From: Candidatus Aminicenantota bacterium | GTDB lineage: Bacteria > Acidobacteriota > Aminicenantia > JAMOAD01 | Direction: 5' to 3' | DNA: 48,103 bases | Assembly (NCBI GenBank): GCA_027061995.1 | Contig: JAMOUT010000046.1 | Span: 1 to 48,103 of the forward strand | Part shown: positions 38,790 through 46,762 of the stretch, piece after piece | Numbering within the stretch: position 1 is the stretch's first letter | Layout of the letters: each line of letters opens with the position of its first letter | Notes under the pieces: generated by a model | Seen by the model: only the letters and a program-made list of their open reading frames with translations | The model's database searches: none | What the model was told of the DNA's origin: nothing | Position numbers and translations under genes: made by a program

Positions 38790-39827
38790 TTAATTTTCTC
38801 CCGCTTCACTCGGATAAAGATTATAATAGAAAAGAAATCTTGCTTTTACTGTTTTATACGGATAATAATCGGGTAAAGGGGGAAACGGAACAGAACCTTT
38901 AATAGCATTCTGCGAAGAGAGATTAAAAGAGATTACTTTTGATTTGACCAATACTTTAAATTGCGACAGAGAGCCATCTTTACTGAAAACAATATAAAAG
39001 GCATTGTATCCTTTTAAACCTAATTTTGCAGCCGTAGGAACAATCCAATTGGCTTTCACCCTTCTTATTACCTCTTTTATCCAAGGATCAAGATTAATCC
39101 CGTGAGTATCGAAAGCAACCGAAGCCCCGTAATTTTTCCAGCCGCTTCCTCCGCCGATACCCTCTCCGAGTTTAAAACTAAACCTGTTTTTACCCCCGTA
39201 AGGGATTACCAATTTTTTCTTCTTGATTTTCGGTTTGCTCTTACTTATCCCTTTATAAAGATAATTACCCCCTTTTCCCGGATTACCGGGAGGCAGATTA
39301 TCTTTTCCTTTAACCGGTCCTCTCGGGTCCTTGTCGGGAACTATTATCATCCTTTTTTTTGTTAAAGGCAATTTTTTCATTTTTTCTTTTGGTATGGGAA
39401 TAGGCGTTTTTTTAATAGGTTTTGTTTTTTTAATTGGTTTCAACTTCGGTTTGATAATCGGTTTTGGTTTTGGTTTGATAATTGGTTTTGGTTTTTTAAC
39501 GGATTTTTTCTCTTTTACCAATGAAAAATTATTTTTAGGCTTTTCAGGTTGAGCGGGTTTTCTTTTTTCCACCTGTTTTTTCTTTGTTTCAACAGGTTTA
39601 GGCTTTATAAGCTTCTTTTTTTTCTTCTTTATAATAACTTTTTTAAATTTCGGATAATGAATCGGTTTTTTCAGTGGTTCGGGGATAACAACATCCGTTA
39701 TTTTTTCTTCGGGGTATTCTCGAGTATCGGGAATAAACATGAGCAAACCGAATATTAATATATGCAGAATAATGGATAATATTAAAAAAACCGGTTTTTC
39801 CTTTCTCTTATTAAATTCTTCAAACAT
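38790..39827 (-). CDS. TonB-family energy-transducing protein
   Basis: Inner-membrane anchor (PVFLILSIILHILIFGLLMFI), a Pro/Lys-rich periplasmic span (about residues 35-180, with repeats such as KPKPIIKPKPKP), a Gly-rich linker and a C-terminal TonB/TolA-like domain (about 245-340: DPWIKEVIRRVKANW, VPFPPLPDYYP). The PxK repeats suit a long rigid span across the periplasm. No exbB/exbD or TonB-dependent receptor is in the window. It starts within the end of the upstream hydrolase gene (8-nt overlap) and is the last gene of the bamA operon. TolA-like function is an alternative. Confidence 0.8.
   Translation of the reverse strand: MFEEFNKRKEKPVFLILSIILHILIFGLLMFIPDTREYPEEKITDVVIPEPLKKPIHYPKFKKVIIKKKKKKLIKPKPVETKKKQVEKRKPAQPEKPKNNFSLVKEKKSVKKPKPIIKPKPKPIIKPKLKPIKKTKPIKKTPIPIPKEKMKKLPLTKKRMIIVPDKDPRGPVKGKDNLPPGNPGKGGNYLYKGISKSKPKIKKKKLVIPYGGKNRFSFKLGEGIGGGSGWKNYGASVAFDTHGINLDPWIKEVIRRVKANWIVPTAAKLGLKGYNAFYIVFSKDGSLSQFKVLVKSKVISFNLSSQNAIKGSVPFPPLPDYYPYKTVKARFLFYYNLYPSEAGEN
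39448..39495. repeat. 24-bp tandem repeat in the tonB-like gene
   Basis: Two consecutive 24-bp copies differing at one base, encoding KPKPIIKP twice in the Pro/Lys-rich span. Copy number could vary by slippage without changing frame. Confidence 0.75.
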
Positions 39828-40905
39828 ATCTTCTCATAATTATATCTTGGCTCTTTTTAATTATATCACTATGAGTCGGTTCATGAACTTTCGGGTGAAC
39901 TCTGTTCAGGAGAATAGTGATTATCAAATCTCTCTCAGGATCTATTGTAATACTTGTTCCCGTAAAACCAAAATGATAAATTGTTTTATCGGATAATAAT
40001 TTTGATATTGAAGCCCCTTGCGTTGTTTTTAAAATGAATCCCATGCTTCTGTGAACCGAACTAAAAGGGGTAAGGTTTTTATAAAAAAGTTGCAGCATTC
40101 TGTTTGTTAATATTGTATTTGAATTCGGTAAAAATTGCATTGCGATTTTTGATACATCATCGGCTGTTGAAAACAATCCCGCATTTCCGGCTGTTCCACC
40201 GGAGAAAAAGGAATTTCCATCATGGACTTTTCCCCATATTATCCCTTTTCTTTCGGGTATCTTTATCTTAAAAATATTCAAAGCTTTTTCTTTTTCATAT
40301 CCGTTTCCATCCTCTGTTGCCGATATCCTTTCTTTTAATTTTATCGGCGGCGAAAAAAAGGTATCTTCAATTTTCAAAGGTTTTTTTATCAACCTGTTAA
40401 AAATAGATATATAATCTTCCCCCGTAATTTTTTCAATAATTGCTTTTAATATTATATAATTGAGACAACTGTAAATTACAAATTTCCCGGGAGGTTTTTC
40501 AAGTTTTGTCCGCAATGCTTCTCTGAAAATGGAATTAAAATTTTGGTTTTTATAATACAGAGGTTTCCAGCTTATGTTTCCCGTCGTATGAGTTAAAAGC
40601 TGCTCTATAGTTATCTCTTTTTTATCTTCGGGAATATCTCCGAAAATATAACCGAGATTATCCCCCTGTTTAAATTTTTTATCCTCTATCAAAAGAGCAA
40701 TCAAAAAAGATGTTGCAAGAGGTTTTGTAATTGAAGCCAAATCATAAATCGTTTTTTGTGTGGTTTTTATTTTTTCGGGGATAATAACGGAAAATCCTCC
40801 GAATGTTGAAAAAACAGTTTTTCCGTTTTTGATAACGACGATATTATATGAAGTGATTCTATTTTCTTCAATTTTCCGATTTAAGTAATTGTTTAGTTCG
40901 TGCAT
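39820..40905 (-). CDS. Serine hydrolase of the beta-lactamase/DD-carboxypeptidase family
   Basis: Class C-type fold with S-x-x-K motif SITK (S58-K61, DLASITKPLATS), a Tyr region VIYSCLNYIIL and the HFGFTGTS motif near the C-terminus. It has no signal peptide, so a cytoplasmic location is predicted, unlike the lipoprotein at 37614. The 38-nt overlap with the upstream oxidoreductase gene is long, but no later start codon gives an intact N-terminus. Proteins of this group include esterases and muropeptide hydrolases. Its place in a lipid A/outer-membrane operon suggests an envelope role. It is poorly conserved and I give no gene name. Confidence 0.8.
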   Translation of the reverse strand: MHELNNYLNRKIEENRITSYNIVVIKNGKTVFSTFGGFSVIIPEKIKTTQKTIYDLASITKPLATSFLIALLIEDKKFKQGDNLGYIFGDIPEDKKEITIEQLLTHTTGNISWKPLYYKNQNFNSIFREALRTKLEKPPGKFVIYSCLNYIILKAIIEKITGEDYISIFNRLIKKPLKIEDTFFSPPIKLKERISATEDGNGYEKEKALNIFKIKIPERKGIIWGKVHDGNSFFSGGTAGNAGLFSTADDVSKIAMQFLPNSNTILTNRMLQLFYKNLTPFSSVHRSMGFILKTTQGASISKLLSDKTIYHFGFTGTSITIDPERDLIITILLNRVHPKVHEPTHSDIIKKSQDIIMRRYV

Positions 40906-41806
40906 TAATAAATTCCAAGATTTTTTCCGCTATTTCAAGTGCTCTAACCCCCTCTTTGAGAGTAACTTCCTGCTCCCCTCTTTTGTCTATACTATCGAAA
41001 AAATTGATTAATTCAAGTTTTAAAGGTTCCCCCTTATCGACTTCAATAGGGGTTCTCCTTATATCATTTTTGAAAACTTTTGTTACAAAAACTTCCTGTA
41101 TAGTATAATCAAGATTAAAATATGAATTTTTTTGAAATATCCTGATTTTTCTGACTTTTTCAGCCGAAACTCTACTTGCTGTCAAATTTGCAACGGAGCC
41201 ATCCTCGAATTCAATTATTACATTGGCTATATCAATGCTTTTAGTAACCACGGGAATCCCTACCGCTCTTATATCCGTAGGTTTTGCTTTTGCAAGTGAA
41301 AAAACGATATCAATATCATGTATCATCAAATCTTTTACAACATCAACATCCAAAGCTCTATTTGAAAATCTTCCCAATCTTTCGGTTATAAAATAAAAAG
41401 GGTATTCTATGTGTTGTCGAAAAGCTTTCAGAGCCGGATTAAACCTTTCTATATGACCTACCGTTATGATTTTATCACTGTTCTTTGAAAGTTCCAGCAA
41501 TTTATGAGCTTCTTCAAGTTTTGCTGCTACAGGTTTTTCTATAAGGACATTTTTTCCCTTTAAAATAAGGTTTTTGGCAATATCATAATGGGTTATCGTA
41601 GGCGTAGCGATGATAAAGCTATCAACTTTTCCCACAAGATCATTATAATCGGTATAATAAGGAACATTGAACTCTTCCCCGACCTCTTTAGCTCTGTCAG
41701 GGTCAATATCAACAACTCCGACAAGTTTTACACTGTCCAATGATTTGATAATTCTTGTATGGTGATATCCGAGATATCCTACTCCAATTACTCCTACATT
41801 TATCAT
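40868..41806 (-). CDS. Gfo/Idh/MocA-family NAD(P) oxidoreductase, possible GnnA-like UDP-GlcNAc 3-dehydrogenase
   Basis: Rossmann domain with GVIGVGYLGYHHTR, ATPTITHYD and the family signature VLIEKPVAA (EKP), followed by the C-terminal alpha/beta domain with VGHIERFNPA and LMIHDIDIV. Length 312. It lies between lpxI (4-nt overlap) and a serine hydrolase. In bacteria with amide-linked lipid A, such as Acidithiobacillus and Leptospira, a Gfo/Idh enzyme (GnnA) oxidises UDP-GlcNAc at C3 before an aminotransferase (GnnB) acts. The position next to lpxA fits this, but no GnnB-like aminotransferase is present here. Other sugar dehydrogenase roles are possible. Confidence 0.8.
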   Translation of the reverse strand: MINVGVIGVGYLGYHHTRIIKSLDSVKLVGVVDIDPDRAKEVGEEFNVPYYTDYNDLVGKVDSFIIATPTITHYDIAKNLILKGKNVLIEKPVAAKLEEAHKLLELSKNSDKIITVGHIERFNPALKAFRQHIEYPFYFITERLGRFSNRALDVDVVKDLMIHDIDIVFSLAKAKPTDIRAVGIPVVTKSIDIANVIIEFEDGSVANLTASRVSAEKVRKIRIFQKNSYFNLDYTIQEVFVTKVFKNDIRRTPIEVDKGEPLKLELINFFDSIDKRGEQEVTLKEGVRALEIAEKILEFINARTKQLLKSEN

Positions 41807-42597
41807 ATTGCCACCAAAATTAATTTTGTCTTTTTACAATACTCCATAACTTTAACAAAGTCAAGGATTATGGTTTTTTTTGATTCTATCGCGAGTGCTT
41901 TTCCCCCGTTATTTTTAATATTTTTCACGGTATCAAGCCCCACCACCGGGATATCAAATCTCATATCATGATCGGGCATGGAGACTTTGACTATTGTAAA
42001 ATCATCAGCATATTTACCCGTCCTTTCTATCATTTTATCAGTGCCTTCAATCCCTTCAACCGCAAGAATCACTCCCTCTTTAACCGCCACTGATTGACCT
42101 ATTCCCATTTTTGCAATCTCTTTTGCTATTTGATAGCCAAACTCAATATCCTTTTTTATTTTTTTCCCGATTTTCCCCGATAAAATAGTTTTATCCGGTA
42201 TTATATCCGATAAAATCTGATCATATCTTAATAATTCTATGGAAAAAGTTTTCAGAAATTCTTTTATAGTGTCAAATATTGAAGAGGGATTTTTTGATTT
42301 AAGTTTGTTAATTATTGACAGAGCGAATTTATCAGGCTTTATATCCTTAAATATATTTATATGCTCCACCTTTCCGGCGAGAATAACTTTTTTTATCCGG
42401 TTTTTCGTCAAAATATCAATCATTTTTTTTACTTGTCCTAATTTTACTTCAAAATAATAAGGGGTCAAATTTTTTAAAGAGGGATGAGCAAAATTAGTCA
42501 AACCGATTATATAAACCTCATTATTTTGATTTATAAGCTCTTTTGCAATTGTTTCGGGTAATTTTCCGCTACCGGAAATTATAGCTATCTTTCCCAT
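41803..42597 (-). CDS. lpxI: UDP-2,3-diacylglucosamine pyrophosphatase, LpxI type
   Basis: Hydrolyses UDP-2,3-diacylglucosamine to lipid X and UMP in lipid A synthesis, the role of LpxH in E. coli. The N-terminus KIAIISGSGKLPETIAKE, KVILAGKVEH, MGIGQSVAVKEGVILAVE and the C-terminal GVEGTD/MPDHDMRFDIPVVGLDT regions are typical of LpxI (formerly DUF1009). Length 264. It overlaps lpxA by 13 nt and the downstream oxidoreductase by 4 nt, so it is translated together with them. Confidence 0.92.
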   Translation of the reverse strand: MGKIAIISGSGKLPETIAKELINQNNEVYIIGLTNFAHPSLKNLTPYYFEVKLGQVKKMIDILTKNRIKKVILAGKVEHINIFKDIKPDKFALSIINKLKSKNPSSIFDTIKEFLKTFSIELLRYDQILSDIIPDKTILSGKIGKKIKKDIEFGYQIAKEIAKMGIGQSVAVKEGVILAVEGIEGTDKMIERTGKYADDFTIVKVSMPDHDMRFDIPVVGLDTVKNIKNNGGKALAIESKKTIILDFVKVMEYCKKTKLILVAI

Positions 42598-43388
42598 TTA
42601 TCCCTTATTTTTTTTATAATACCTCTTTTTGAATTTTTTATAAAATTTAAAAGATGTGTTAATTCCTTATCTTTTTCCAACTCTTTTTCTATTTTTACCA
42701 AAGCATCCGTTGTATTTAATCCTGACCTAAACAGAATTTTGAAAGCTTCTTTTATTATAGCTACAGCTTCCTTGGAGATTCCGTTTCTTCTCATCCCGAT
42801 TGAGTTAACATCAACAATATACGCAGGTCTTGCTCCGACTACCCGTGCAAAAGGGGGAACATCCCGGGTTACCACCGCATACCCGCCGAGAAAACTGAAT
42901 TTCCCGATTCTAACAAATTGATGAACACCGACAAATGCACTTAAGATGGCATAATCCTCGATTATTGTATGTCCGCCGATAGTTGCTCCGTTCGTCATAA
43001 TAATATTACTACCTATTTGACAATCATGTGCTATATGGGAGTATAACATAAAATAGTTATTATCCCCTATTTTTGTTAATCCTCCCCCCTTTGTTGTTCC
43101 TATGTTTATACTCGTATATCCTCTGATAATATTATTGTTTCCTATGATAACCCTATGGGGCTCACCTTTATAACCGATATCCTGAGGCGGTGTTCCTATT
43201 GAAGCGAAAGAGTAAATTTTATTATTTTCTCCGATTTCAACATTACCCGTTATTAATGTATTTTGAAATACTTTAGTATTTTTCTTTATTCGAACATTCT
43301 TTCCTATATAAGAAAAGGCGCCTATTTCCACGCCTTCATCAAGCTCAGCTCCTTTCTCAACCTGTGCTTTTGAATCTATCAGAACCAT
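42585..43388 (-). CDS. lpxA: UDP-N-acetylglucosamine acyltransferase
   Basis: First step of lipid A synthesis. Left-handed beta-helix with repeated hexapeptides (VEIGAF, VEIGEN, IGDNNY) and the catalytic His pair region HIAHDC (H118, H121), then the C-terminal helical end GMRRNGISKEAV. Length (267) fits. The segment that reads TIHRGT in E. coli LpxA is SINIGT here, while the following GGGLTKIG is conserved. It starts 1 nt after fabZ. Combined with the GnnA-like gene, it may use an amino-sugar acceptor (inference). Confidence 0.95.
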   Translation of the reverse strand: MVLIDSKAQVEKGAELDEGVEIGAFSYIGKNVRIKKNTKVFQNTLITGNVEIGENNKIYSFASIGTPPQDIGYKGEPHRVIIGNNNIIRGYTSINIGTTKGGGLTKIGDNNYFMLYSHIAHDCQIGSNIIMTNGATIGGHTIIEDYAILSAFVGVHQFVRIGKFSFLGGYAVVTRDVPPFARVVGARPAYIVDVNSIGMRRNGISKEAVAIIKEAFKILFRSGLNTTDALVKIEKELEKDKELTHLLNFIKNSKRGIIKKIRDKWER

Positions 43389-43389
43389 T

Positions 43390-43836
43390 CTAAAATCCGA
43401 GATCTTTTTTTGGTTTTATAACAGTAAGAATGACAGCTTCAGCCACTATATTTTCATCTACTTTTGCCACTCCCTCTATTTTCGCAATACCTCTTCTAAA
43501 AGAGAGTATTTTTACCTCTAAGAACAGAGTATCACCCGGAAGAACCGGTTTTCTGAATTTTGCTTTTTCTATTCCCGCGAAAAAAGTAACATTATTCTTT
43601 TTTTCTATATCATACCTGCTTAATAAAGACAAACCGCCGGCCTGAGCAAGTGCCTCTATTATCAAAACTCCCGGCATTATGGGCATATCGGGAAAATGTC
43701 CCTGAAAAAAAGGCTCATTATGGGAAACATTTTTAATAGCTACAAATTTATCTTCGCTATCCTCTATTATTTTATCAACAAGAAGAAAAGGGTATCTATG
43801 AGGCAATAACTCTAATATTTTATATCTATCCTTCAT
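43390..43836 (-). CDS. fabZ: (3R)-hydroxyacyl-ACP dehydratase FabZ
   Basis: Hot-dog-fold dehydratase of fatty-acid elongation. The catalytic His lies in QGHFPDMPIMPGV and the Glu in IEALAQAGG; LPHRYPFLLVD opens the protein. Length (148) is standard. It sits between ompH and lpxA, as in many Proteobacteria, where lpxD is usually also present but is missing here. It competes with LpxA for hydroxyacyl-ACP, which explains the shared operon. Confidence 0.96.
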   Translation of the reverse strand: MKDRYKILELLPHRYPFLLVDKIIEDSEDKFVAIKNVSHNEPFFQGHFPDMPIMPGVLIIEALAQAGGLSLLSRYDIEKKNNVTFFAGIEKAKFRKPVLPGDTLFLEVKILSFRRGIAKIEGVAKVDENIVAEAVILTVIKPKKDLGF

Positions 43837-43854: not shown

Positions 43855-44409
43855 TTATTTCTTTGTCTTTGATGCTAATTTTGATTTATTGTATCTTTGA
43901 ATAACTTCATCGGTAATATCTATCGATTTATCCATATCAACTATCCCTGCTCTTGTTACATCAAAAATAATAGCTATTTTTTTCTCTTGTCTTATTTTTT
44001 TAATTATGGGCTCTAACTCTTTTTGAACTTTACCCAATAATTGTTTGCTTTGGAACTGCATATCCATCTGAGCGTTTTTATATTCCTGTTGTAAAGTTGC
44101 TTTTTTAGCATCAATCTTTTTTTGAAGATTAATTCTCGCTTGCTCACTCATAGTTAATCCTTGAGTTTGTAATTTGTTTTGAAGTGTTGATAATTCTCTT
44201 TTCAATCTGGTTAATTTGTTTTGTTTTGCTTTTTGAAGATTATCAAGCTTTTTCATAACTTTTTGCCCTGCTATTGATTTTTGGAGCACTTTCTGGGGGT
44301 TGATAACAGCGATTTTCTGACCATTGTTTGATTGTGCATAAAAAATTGTCGTGCCTGCAATAATCATCACCATAACCATTGTTAATGTTAATATTCTTTT
44401 TTTCATCAT
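43855..44409 (-). CDS. OmpH/Skp-family periplasmic chaperone
   Basis: Signal peptide (residues about 5-24, ending FYAQS), then KIAVINPQKVLQKS, the start of the Skp body, a long coiled coil of about 90 residues (QKAKQNKLTRLKREL region) and the closing IAIIFDVTRAGIVDMDKSIDIT strand. Skp trimers hold unfolded outer-membrane proteins for BamA. It lies 31 nt downstream of bamA, the usual arrangement. An aataggaggaatag site precedes two adjacent ATG codons; the first is taken as the start. Confidence 0.92.
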   Translation of the reverse strand: MMKKRILTLTMVMVMIIAGTTIFYAQSNNGQKIAVINPQKVLQKSIAGQKVMKKLDNLQKAKQNKLTRLKRELSTLQNKLQTQGLTMSEQARINLQKKIDAKKATLQQEYKNAQMDMQFQSKQLLGKVQKELEPIIKKIRQEKKIAIIFDVTRAGIVDMDKSIDITDEVIQRYNKSKLASKTKK

Positions 44410-44440: not shown

Positions 44441-46762
44441 TTAAAAAGTTGTTCCAACACCAAATCTCATCTGAAAGTGGTTATCTTCCTCCCTTAATAC
44501 ACGGGGATTATAAGCGAATATTAATCTGAAAGGAACATTGAGAGCGGGGATAAATATTCTGAACTCAACACCGAGCGAGGAATACATATCTTTCAGACTT
44601 GCGGAAATACCGGGCCCCCAAGTATTTGCATGATCGGCAAAAAGAATGAGACTGAGAGGCATTTGGGCCCCGAGCGGGATTTTATATTCAAAATTAAATT
44701 GAAGCAGTTTATCACCTCCTACGACATATCCGTTTTTATCCTTAGGGGCAATCCGATAAACCTCAAATCCTCTGACACTCATCTCACCACCAATATAAAA
44801 TCTTTCATAAAACGGAATCTCTTTATCATCGAGGGATTTAATAAAACTTCCTTCAAAATGTATCCCTACGGTGTGTTTTTTTGCTATTCCTTTAAAATAC
44901 TTTGTAAATAAAAAGCGAGGTTTTATAAGACTATAATCCCCCCCAAGAAATTTTCCGGAAAATTTTAAACTGAACCCATACATAACACCGGAGGTAGGAT
45001 CAAGTGGAGAATCAACAGTTGAATAATATAAATTAGGCATAATGCTTGAGAAGGTTCTTTCTCCCATTTGGTAATAGTAATAATAGTAGGGATTTATGGA
45101 ATTGAAAAAATTACTTATTTCATTAACCTTGATTTTTTCGTATGAGTATGTCAAATTGAGATTAAGATATCTGTATAATCTTGCAAAAACAGATAAACTT
45201 ACCCCTTTGGTTTGTTGGTCAAACAGTCCCGGATAAACCATTGATTTATTAAAGACACTAAATCCGAGAGACATGGGCAAATCAAAAACATAAGGTTCGG
45301 TAAAACCAAAACTATAATTTTTTGTTCTTGAGCCATACATCATCATAACACTTAATTTTTCGCCCGCGCCCATAAAATTGGATGTCGAATAAGAGAACAT
45401 TATAAAGGTTCCTTCATAACCACTGTATCCGCCACTGAATTGAAACATATTTCTTCCGAGTTCTTCGACCTTAACTCCTATATCTATTTGGGTGGGATCT
45501 TTAGGATCCGGTTTGACATCGGGCATCTCTTTTATATCAACAAGTCCGAGTTGTTTCATCCTCCTTAAACTCTGTTTGAAAAATTCCAACCTGAATACAT
45601 CCCCTTCTCTGAGAAAAAACTCTCTTCTTAATACAAAATCCTTTGTATATGTATTTCCTTTAAATGTTAAAAATCTTAAATAAGCTCTTTTATTTTCCTG
45701 AACATTGATTGTGATATTAACCCTCTTGTGAGCAGGGTCAAGCTGTTCCGAAGGAGCTACCTGACAATAAAAATACCCTCTGTTCCCGTAAATATCCTGA
45801 ACATCCTTTATTCCGTCATTTCTTTTCTTTAAACTATACCATTGCCCTTTTTTAAACTTTAAGATAGCTTTTATTACCGGGGTAGGCAAAATTTTATTAC
45901 CCTCCACCTTAATTTCCCCTATCTTATAACGAACCCCCTCTTCAATAGGTATGGTTATATTAACCATCTTTCTCTTTCGAAAAAAGATATCCCTTTTAAA
46001 TACATATTTAAACAAAGGATTCCCCGTCTTAACTTCGAGATACCCTTTGTTATAGTATGCTTCTTTAATATTCTCAAGGGCTTTTGATAATTTTTCTTTT
46101 GAAAAAGTATCTTTTGAAAAGATGGAAAATATTAAGGAGTGTTCCCTTTGTTCTTTTAATTTCCATTTTAAAAGAAAAGAGGGAATTGCTTTATTTCCCG
46201 TAAAAACGATTTTATTTATTTTTATACTCAATCCCCTGTTAACATAAATATCAATTGTAACATTTTTTTTATCTTTACTATATTTGGTTTCATATCTGAC
46301 TTCGGAATCATCATAATTTTTCTCTTTCAGATAAGCTTTTATCTCTCTAACAGCCGATTTTAATCTATATTCATCATAGTATGAATAAGGGAGAATTTTT
46401 AAATTTTTTTCATCAAGGTGTTTATTTATATCTTTCTCTTTTATCCCTTTTGTAATAAAATTGATTGCCTTAACAATAGGTTTCTCCTTAACAATTAAAG
46501 TTAACTCCACCCCTTTAAGGCTATCGGTTTTTTTTATCTCAATATAATCGAAAAAACCGGTTTCCCACAATCTTTTTATACTTGAATCAATTTTTCTCAT
46601 ATCATACCTACTACCCTTTGAAAAATCCAAATAATAGGTTATTGTCTCAATAGAAGTTCTCTCATTTCCCACGATCTTAAGAGAAGTTATTGTTTCGGAG
46701 AACAGAAAAGGGGAACTAACTAAAACTATTATTATCAATGACAAAAAAAACTTTTTCTTCAT
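44441..46762 (-). CDS. bamA: Outer-membrane protein assembly factor BamA (Omp85)
   Basis: Inserts beta-barrel proteins into the outer membrane. Signal peptide (residues 3-22), five POTRA domains (about 24-430, with repeated G-N-x-x-x-x patterns such as IVGNERTS, VFTGNKAIP, VEGNKILP, FKGNTYTK) and a C-terminal 16-strand barrel (about 430-773) with the loop-6 motif VRGFE and a terminal Phe (GVGTTF). Length (773) is close to E. coli BamA (810). A gaggtaaaaa site follows a good promoter. It is the first gene of the operon bamA-ompH-fabZ-lpxA-lpxI-Gfo/Idh-hydrolase-tonB. Confidence 0.95.
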   Translation of the reverse strand: MKKKFFLSLIIIVLVSSPFLFSETITSLKIVGNERTSIETITYYLDFSKGSRYDMRKIDSSIKRLWETGFFDYIEIKKTDSLKGVELTLIVKEKPIVKAINFITKGIKEKDINKHLDEKNLKILPYSYYDEYRLKSAVREIKAYLKEKNYDDSEVRYETKYSKDKKNVTIDIYVNRGLSIKINKIVFTGNKAIPSFLLKWKLKEQREHSLIFSIFSKDTFSKEKLSKALENIKEAYYNKGYLEVKTGNPLFKYVFKRDIFFRKRKMVNITIPIEEGVRYKIGEIKVEGNKILPTPVIKAILKFKKGQWYSLKKRNDGIKDVQDIYGNRGYFYCQVAPSEQLDPAHKRVNITINVQENKRAYLRFLTFKGNTYTKDFVLRREFFLREGDVFRLEFFKQSLRRMKQLGLVDIKEMPDVKPDPKDPTQIDIGVKVEELGRNMFQFSGGYSGYEGTFIMFSYSTSNFMGAGEKLSVMMMYGSRTKNYSFGFTEPYVFDLPMSLGFSVFNKSMVYPGLFDQQTKGVSLSVFARLYRYLNLNLTYSYEKIKVNEISNFFNSINPYYYYYYQMGERTFSSIMPNLYYSTVDSPLDPTSGVMYGFSLKFSGKFLGGDYSLIKPRFLFTKYFKGIAKKHTVGIHFEGSFIKSLDDKEIPFYERFYIGGEMSVRGFEVYRIAPKDKNGYVVGGDKLLQFNFEYKIPLGAQMPLSLILFADHANTWGPGISASLKDMYSSLGVEFRIFIPALNVPFRLIFAYNPRVLREEDNHFQMRFGVGTTF

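Follow-up and report, generated by a model that had tools for sequence, protein, structure and literature searches.

The closest described counterpart of the system treated here is the GnnA–GnnB–LpxA route of Acidithiobacillus ferrooxidans, though the genes of such routes can be scattered or diverged. For instance, in Mesorhizobium loti gnnA, gnnB and lpxA all lie at separate loci, according to the consulted part of PMC5644692, and in G. bethesdensis, where the diamino sugar GlcN3N was shown by nuclear magnetic resonance, GnnA is 44% and the candidate GnnBs only 37–39% identical to the A. ferrooxidans proteins, according to the consulted part of PMC8036547; these are therefore precedents for an unlinked and a weakly similar gnnB. 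When C. jejuni loses gnnA/gnnB, TLR4 is activated more strongly and the bacterium becomes more sensitive to antimicrobial peptides (work cited in that same part of PMC8036547). Here we consider a stretch of 48,103 nucleotides (the window), which is contig JAMOUT010000046.1 (C46) of a 2.36 Mb metagenome-assembled genome, 95% complete in 104 contigs, of a Candidatus Aminicenantota bacterium (class Aminicenantia), and within it a Gfo/Idh/MocA oxidoreductase gene that follows lpxA and lpxI. A preliminary description made from the letters of the window had proposed, from this gene order and from an altered LpxA loop, that the organism may make amide-linked lipid A.

We put at roughly 60% the probability that the oxidoreductase acts as GnnA and, with an unlinked aminotransferase of the DegT family on contig C74, makes UDP-GlcNAc3N, the 3-amino derivative of UDP-N-acetylglucosamine (UDP-GlcNAc), for a single LpxA, leading to amide-linked lipid A. 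The genome encodes a relative of GnnA in standing linkage with lpxA, a DegT protein of the C3 type and LpxD, and from these we infer the substrates of the enzymes, the pairing of GnnA with the C74 protein and the choice made by LpxA. GnnA would oxidise C3 of UDP-GlcNAc with nicotinamide adenine dinucleotide (NAD), the aminotransferase encoded elsewhere (C74 being the best candidate) would turn the 3-ketone into the 3-amine, LpxA would acylate the new amino group with a 3-hydroxyacyl chain, and the later steps (LpxD, LpxI and so on) would run as usual, giving a lipid A backbone whose position 3 bears amide-linked chains. Such links should withstand ester hydrolysis. An uncultured lineage thus probably makes its lipid A by way of GlcNAc3N, which would be a further instance of a pathway already known.

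The oxidoreductase and its tie to lpxA

The oxidoreductase gene (40868–41806, minus strand), the proposed UDP-GlcNAc 3-dehydrogenase, encodes 312 residues with both Gfo/Idh domains above their cut-offs (PF01408 105 bits, PF22725 34 bits), and it shares the letters ATGA with lpxI, a 4-nucleotide overlap that agrees with the preliminary description. The best sequence match among PDB chains is 7bvj (8e-49, 170 bits; the next chain reaches 62 bits), which we take to be GnnA of A. ferrooxidans and to which the protein is 39% identical. Lys91 of an EKP motif and the motif D159xxxH163 are invariant in an alignment with 7bvj and seven relatives. The top NCBIfam model of the 13 listed is NF040723, UDP-GlcNAc 3-dehydrogenase, at 215 bits, below its cut-off of 450; that model is archaeal, and the 13 include none for bacterial GnnA. 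We built a tree from 149 Gfo/Idh sequences of at least 230 residues at chosen loci (one row, L069, is an artefact of reading-frame choice that was kept in); there the window gene belongs to a family that includes 7bvj, the genes paired with a DegT in Gammaproteobacteria and Nitrospirota, and genes linked to lpxA from many phyla. Genes of the WlbA type form a separate long branch, of a kind that the program warns may join falsely. Its membership of the GnnA kind is well supported by these comparisons, and its activity is expected to be the NAD-dependent oxidation of UDP-GlcNAc at C3. If so, a lipid A enzyme is overlooked wherever such genes are annotated simply as Gfo/Idh oxidoreductases.

We surveyed 60 relatives, the genome itself included, and found LpxA in 46 of them at an E-value threshold of 1e-30, with only one match in the window's own genome. 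A Gfo/Idh gene scoring at least 187 bits is present in 45 of these 46, and in the sole remaining genome (G040) lpxA lies 657 bases from the contig end on its downstream side. None of the 14 LpxA-negative relatives has a GnnA-type gene, the top score being 118 bits for a gene of G006 that adjoins a DegT; another of them, G050, holds a 49-bit Gfo/Idh fragment at a contig end. Where both genes are found, they lie on one contig within about 1.3 kilobases (kb) of each other in 42 of 45 genomes, the window's own among them. Members of the same family repeat the whole run, bamA–skp–fabZ–lpxA–lpxI–gfo and the serine hydrolase and TonB-like genes that follow, to the extent that their contigs cover it, and other families of the class repeat it as far as the oxidoreductase; since the order recurs in this way, it is not due to chance. 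Among the best 80 of 589 loci from named genomes, lpxA lies within 2.5 kb of the oxidoreductase in 39, 23 of them with lpxI too, and a DegT gene adjoins the oxidoreductase in six. The lpxA–lpxI–Gfo/Idh order that had been read as a sign of the pathway is thus real and recurrent, but it is not special to this genome.

A separate observation concerns family f3, where ten of eleven genomes (G006, G025, G028, G030, G035, G037, G039, G041, G043 and G047, the exception being G045) are without an LpxA match at 1e-30 and without a GnnA-type gene; lipid A was probably lost in this branch of Aminicenantia.

The two halves of the pair are found together in more distant bacteria. We searched 369 genomes from the class of Legionella bononiensis (Gammaproteobacteria) at an E-value of 1e-40 and found a GnnA-type gene in 128; in 25 of the 30 loci fetched a DegT gene lies directly beside it, and one of the remaining five ends at a contig end. 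Three loci (L333–L335) read fabZ–lpxA–gnnA–gnnB, with GnnA 60–75% identical to 7bvj. Two others (L336 and L338, genomes G213 and G328) carry lpxA–lpxI–gnnA–gnnB without interruption; their lpxA–lpxI–gnnA order is that of the window, though gnnB comes directly after gnnA where the window has a PF00144 serine hydrolase gene. A complementary picture emerges for Ca. Goldiibacteriota (genome G074, locus L180), where fabZ–lpxA–lpxI is followed directly by a DegT gene and the oxidoreductase is not on that stretch. Taken with the gammaproteobacterial loci, it follows that both GnnA and GnnB occur in this operon slot in nature.

A broader proposal, for which we claim rather less than even odds, is that gnnA belongs as a rule to lpxA(-lpxI) operons in Acidobacteriota, Aminicenantia, Gemmatimonadota, Nitrospirota, deltaproteobacterial lineages and others, with GnnB supplied repeatedly by different unlinked DegT lineages. 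If true, amide-linked diamino-sugar lipid A would be widespread, perhaps an old default in barely studied groups and not an oddity. If the reading of the window holds, the lipid A chemistry of groups without known lipopolysaccharide (LPS) structures could be predicted from one lpxA-adjacent gene.

Candidate aminotransferases and rival explanations

The preliminary description had noted that the window lacks GnnB, and a PF01041 search of the whole genome agrees, finding no DegT match on the window contig. It finds two strong matches elsewhere, C74:29307–30395 (384 bits) and C79:84630–85754 (392 bits), and five further matches are weak, at 19 to 29 bits. The best GnnB candidate is the C74 gene (C74:29289–30440). 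QdtB and WbpE, both C3 aminotransferases, are among its protein's nearest named relatives in the PDB; for the C79 protein the best named PDB relatives are ArnB. The DegT protein of the lpxA–gnnA–gnnB locus L333 is 39% identical to that of C74 (290 bits) and 27% to that of C79 (162 bits), and every one of the 32 distinct DegTs adjacent to gnnA or lpx genes, L164 and L286 included, scores higher with C74 than with C79 (once duplicates are counted, 38 of 39 rows concur, and the odd one out is the L286 gene in a second, truncated copy). The C74 gene is kept in all four family members at 57–70% identity, the range for the oxidoreductase there being 63–71%. It adjoins gatB (named by eye), and there is no polysaccharide cluster around it. 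Judged on such similarities, the odds are slightly in favour of the C74 protein being the likeliest GnnB, and the presence of a GnnB in the genome is moderately supported; a candidate for the DegT aminotransferase that had been thought worth seeking beyond the window is thus in place.

Several observations weigh against the proposed pathway, or against C74 as its aminotransferase. The C74 gene lies beside no gnnA or lpx gene, either in its own genome or in 26 new phylum loci. Its protein falls in a clade of six rows whose placement the first of two trees leaves unresolved and whose deeper join is weak (83) in the second, where the group so joined holds L164, L286 and C79. The C79 protein groups with the linked L164 and L286 DegTs at 99–100 in the Shimodaira–Hasegawa-like approximate likelihood ratio test (SH-aLRT), on a long branch, in both trees. 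These trees are two cuts of the data, omitting rows shorter than 330 residues (first) or 320 residues (second), the second also dropping L238, L120, L290, L294, L171 and L300 and keeping only selected unlinked rows; L238 in the first and L350 in the second are spoiled by a wrong frame or very long branches, and the deep forks are weak. DegT genes are present in 12 of 14 LpxA-negative and 44 of 46 LpxA-positive relatives, and because they are about equally common in both, their bare presence says little; co-occurrence of DegT with LpxA was accordingly discarded as a test, having no discriminating power. The assembly is also incomplete (95%, in 104 contigs), the LpxA loop carries no evidence for an amide-type enzyme, and a literature search combining Aminicenantes with lipid A, covering titles and abstract openings, turned up no lipid A structure for the class. 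Searches for Acidobacteria with "lipid A structure" and "diamino" likewise found nothing.

The surroundings of the unlinked DegT genes are varied, and no lpx gene was recognised among the neighbours examined in the phylum. Two of the 26 new loci have WlbA-type genes nearby. At L008 9098–11369 the C79 gene, ArnB/PseC-like, has a hexapeptide acyltransferase-like neighbour whose protein holds a GlmU-like hexapeptide half and no Pfam-recognised pyrophosphorylase half. In two f7 genomes (G010 and G059) the DegT gene adjoins GlmS (L121 5990–8989; L119 6052–9057), and in f4 (L128, L131) the neighbours include a glutamine synthetase-like and a NusG-like gene, both named by eye. Five f22 genomes (L422, L427, L433, L438, L441) have a DegT gene beside an LPS kinase of the Kdo/WaaP type, assigned by similarity, with two of the five kinases checked against Pfam. 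This hints at a role in LPS for several stand-alone DegT lineages.

The explanations that compete with the proposed pathway differ in the partner of GnnA and in the fate of its product. GnnA might be real and its partner the C79 protein, or a DegT missing from the assembly, with the same outcome for lipid A. The firm grouping of the gnnA-adjacent L164 and lpxI-adjacent L286 DegTs with C79, long branch and all, favours this, as do the five f22 genomes with a further DegT beside a kinase, which suggest that GnnB may have been swapped repeatedly; yet every distinct linked DegT, these two included, scores higher with C74, and the solved relatives of C79 are ArnB, so that we think another partner unlikely. 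The amino sugar might instead go to a surface polysaccharide, the oxidoreductase being a true UDP-GlcNAc 3-dehydrogenase while LpxA uses UDP-GlcNAc and lipid A is ester-linked. Such a fate would fit the archaeal enzymes covered by the nearest curated family, the WlbA/WbpE-like pairs of some relatives, and the LpxA loops of the HRGT or HRAT type that 11 of 30 relatives have alongside this oxidoreductase. It is made improbable by the position of the gene within the bamA–skp–fabZ–lpxA–lpxI run and by its absence, among the 60 relatives, only where lpxA is absent or a contig ends, as well as by the separate branch of the WlbA-type genes and the lack of a polysaccharide cluster at C74.

Gfo/Idh enzymes are also broad in substrate, and the function here is read from sequence, so the oxidoreductase could use some other sugar of lipid A or the core, or be a bystander, with no GlcNAc3N made at all. 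Its kinship with 7bvj, the conserved residues and the contiguous lpxA–lpxI–gnnA–gnnB runs of two other genomes leave very little room for this. The pathway from GnnA through the C74 DegT to amide-linked lipid A remains the reading we prefer.

LpxA, its loop and the rest of the gene run

LpxA (42585–43388, minus strand; 267 residues), the first acyltransferase of lipid A synthesis, scores 323 bits with the NCBIfam model PRK05289 (cut-off 226) and matches LpxA structures in the PDB. Alignment confirms that its residues 93–98 (43095–43112, minus strand) read SINIGT opposite TIHRGT of E. coli, whose histidine is H99, as had been described; the further claim, that this loop is a sign of amide formation, is not supported. 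Among 30 genomes of the class, all with the oxidoreductase, the loop varies (TVHRGT, TINRGT, TVNKGS, SINMGT and others) and has histidine in 11. The loop is NIHKGT in 3hsq, which we take to be the Leptospira enzyme, and TINSGT in 3r0s, presumably that of Campylobacter, so that aligning LpxA with these and E. coli is not diagnostic. Leptospira LpxA is selective for UDP-GlcNAc3N, a selectivity put down to a main-chain carbonyl that is not visible in sequence.

A similar lack of contrast is found in Gammaproteobacteria. All 30 GnnA-positive genomes searched for it have LpxA, with 20 N, 7 H and 3 S at the histidine position, and 28 LpxAs from 30 GnnA-negative genomes have 16 N, 10 H and 2 S; N or S thus occurs in 23 of 30 with GnnA and 18 of 28 without detected GnnA. 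For this comparison 19 of the GnnA-negative genomes were listed without a match at 1e-40 and 11 were counted negative by absence from the match list, and one LpxA was taken per genome, in 11 two-LpxA genomes the one closer to that of the window. Even lpxA genes beside both gnnA and gnnB differ, with TINRGT in L333–L335 and TLHVGT and TLHLGT in L336 and L338. The Leptospira loop and the gammaproteobacterial comparison together led us to reject an altered TIHRGT loop as a marker of amide-type LpxA, and they warn against its use as a predictor; the E. coli histidine is simply one among several common letters at this position. R100 is a weak marker too, being replaced in 1 of 30 GnnA-positive and 2 of 28 GnnA-negative enzymes and kept in L333–L335. 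A scan of LpxA columns, comparing seven gnnA-adjacent with 28 GnnA-negative rows, was set aside: the window family agrees with some differing columns and not with others, and lineage explains this equally well. The earlier proposal of GlcNAc3N lipid A therefore stands on the kind of the oxidoreductase, its lpxA linkage and the candidate GnnB, and loses its argument from the loop.

Acylation of the 3-amine would fall to the single LpxA, which, if UDP-GlcNAc3N is its substrate, predicts the same linkage on both backbone sugars. Two lpxA genes are present in Capnocytophaga, whose backbone is hybrid, according to the consulted part of PMC3342949. Two LpxA matches are also seen in 11 of the 30 GnnA-positive Gammaproteobacteria (G104, G108, G112, G121, G128, G132, G137, G138, G149, G155 and G159), against none of the 28 GnnA-negative ones with LpxA, and G121 has the order lpxA–gnnA–lpxA on one contig; such pairs may possibly split the labour between an ester-type and an amide-type enzyme.

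The whole run on the minus strand is bamA–skp–fabZ–lpxA–lpxI–Gfo/Idh–PF00144 serine hydrolase–TonB-like gene, and its last five junctions are 1-nucleotide gaps or overlaps. It begins with BamA (44441–46762), an Omp85 protein with POTRA domains (Pfam 167 and 170 bits), and a Skp/OmpH-like chaperone (43855–44409; Pfam OmpH 94 bits, cut-off 32), both in an order kept in relatives. FabZ (43390–43836; NCBIfam 185 bits, cut-off 113) lies 1 nucleotide upstream of lpxA, which in turn overlaps lpxI by 13 nucleotides. The LpxI-type UDP-2,3-diacylglucosamine diphosphatase (41803–42597; 264 residues) matches Pfam LpxI_N at 99 and LpxI_C at 130 bits (cut-off 25 each), and the NCBIfam LpxI model at 103 bits, far below its cut-off of 400. 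The PF00144 serine hydrolase gene (39820–40905), beta-lactamase/PBP4B-like by Pfam, overlaps the 3′ end of the gnnA-like gene by 38 nucleotides, and a relative lies downstream of gnnA in 8 of 20 gnnA-locus regions examined; the TonB-like gene (38790–39827) ends the listed run. Elsewhere in the genome an LpxD-like gene (G000:C10:59229–60206) scores 345 bits, above the cut-off of 242.5, and a second (G000:C94:411–1370) scores 228 bits, just below it; the latter protein may act on another amino sugar.

Comparison with known systems

LpxI is found between lpxA and lpxB in Caulobacter and others, according to the consulted part of PMC3087551. We found no paper treating LpxI together with GlcN3N; the other searches were not aimed at gene order, most subscription literature lay outside their scope, and we make no claim that the lpxA–lpxI–gnnA order is unpublished.

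The system resembles the A. ferrooxidans route in its lpxA-linked Gfo/Idh gene of the GnnA kind, in a DegT of the C3 type encoded in the genome, and in having both LpxA and LpxD. It differs in that lpxI stands between lpxA and gnnA and the gnnB candidate sits unlinked on a different contig; its GnnA is only 39% identical to 7bvj, and the system is known from its genes alone. The Mesorhizobium and Phyllobacterium systems with GlcN3N lipid A are similar in that gnnA and/or gnnB are not clustered with lpxA, but there both genes lie away from lpxA and the lipid A chemistry is known, unlike in the window (both points from the consulted part of PMC5644692).

The proposed pathway draws on the same two enzyme families as the WlbA/WbpB–WbpE pairs that make 3-amino sugars for O-antigen. 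Those pairs carry out oxidation and amination at C3. Unlike the window gene, however, Gfo/Idh genes of the WlbA kind form a separate long branch and lie near their own aminotransferase and not near lpxA.

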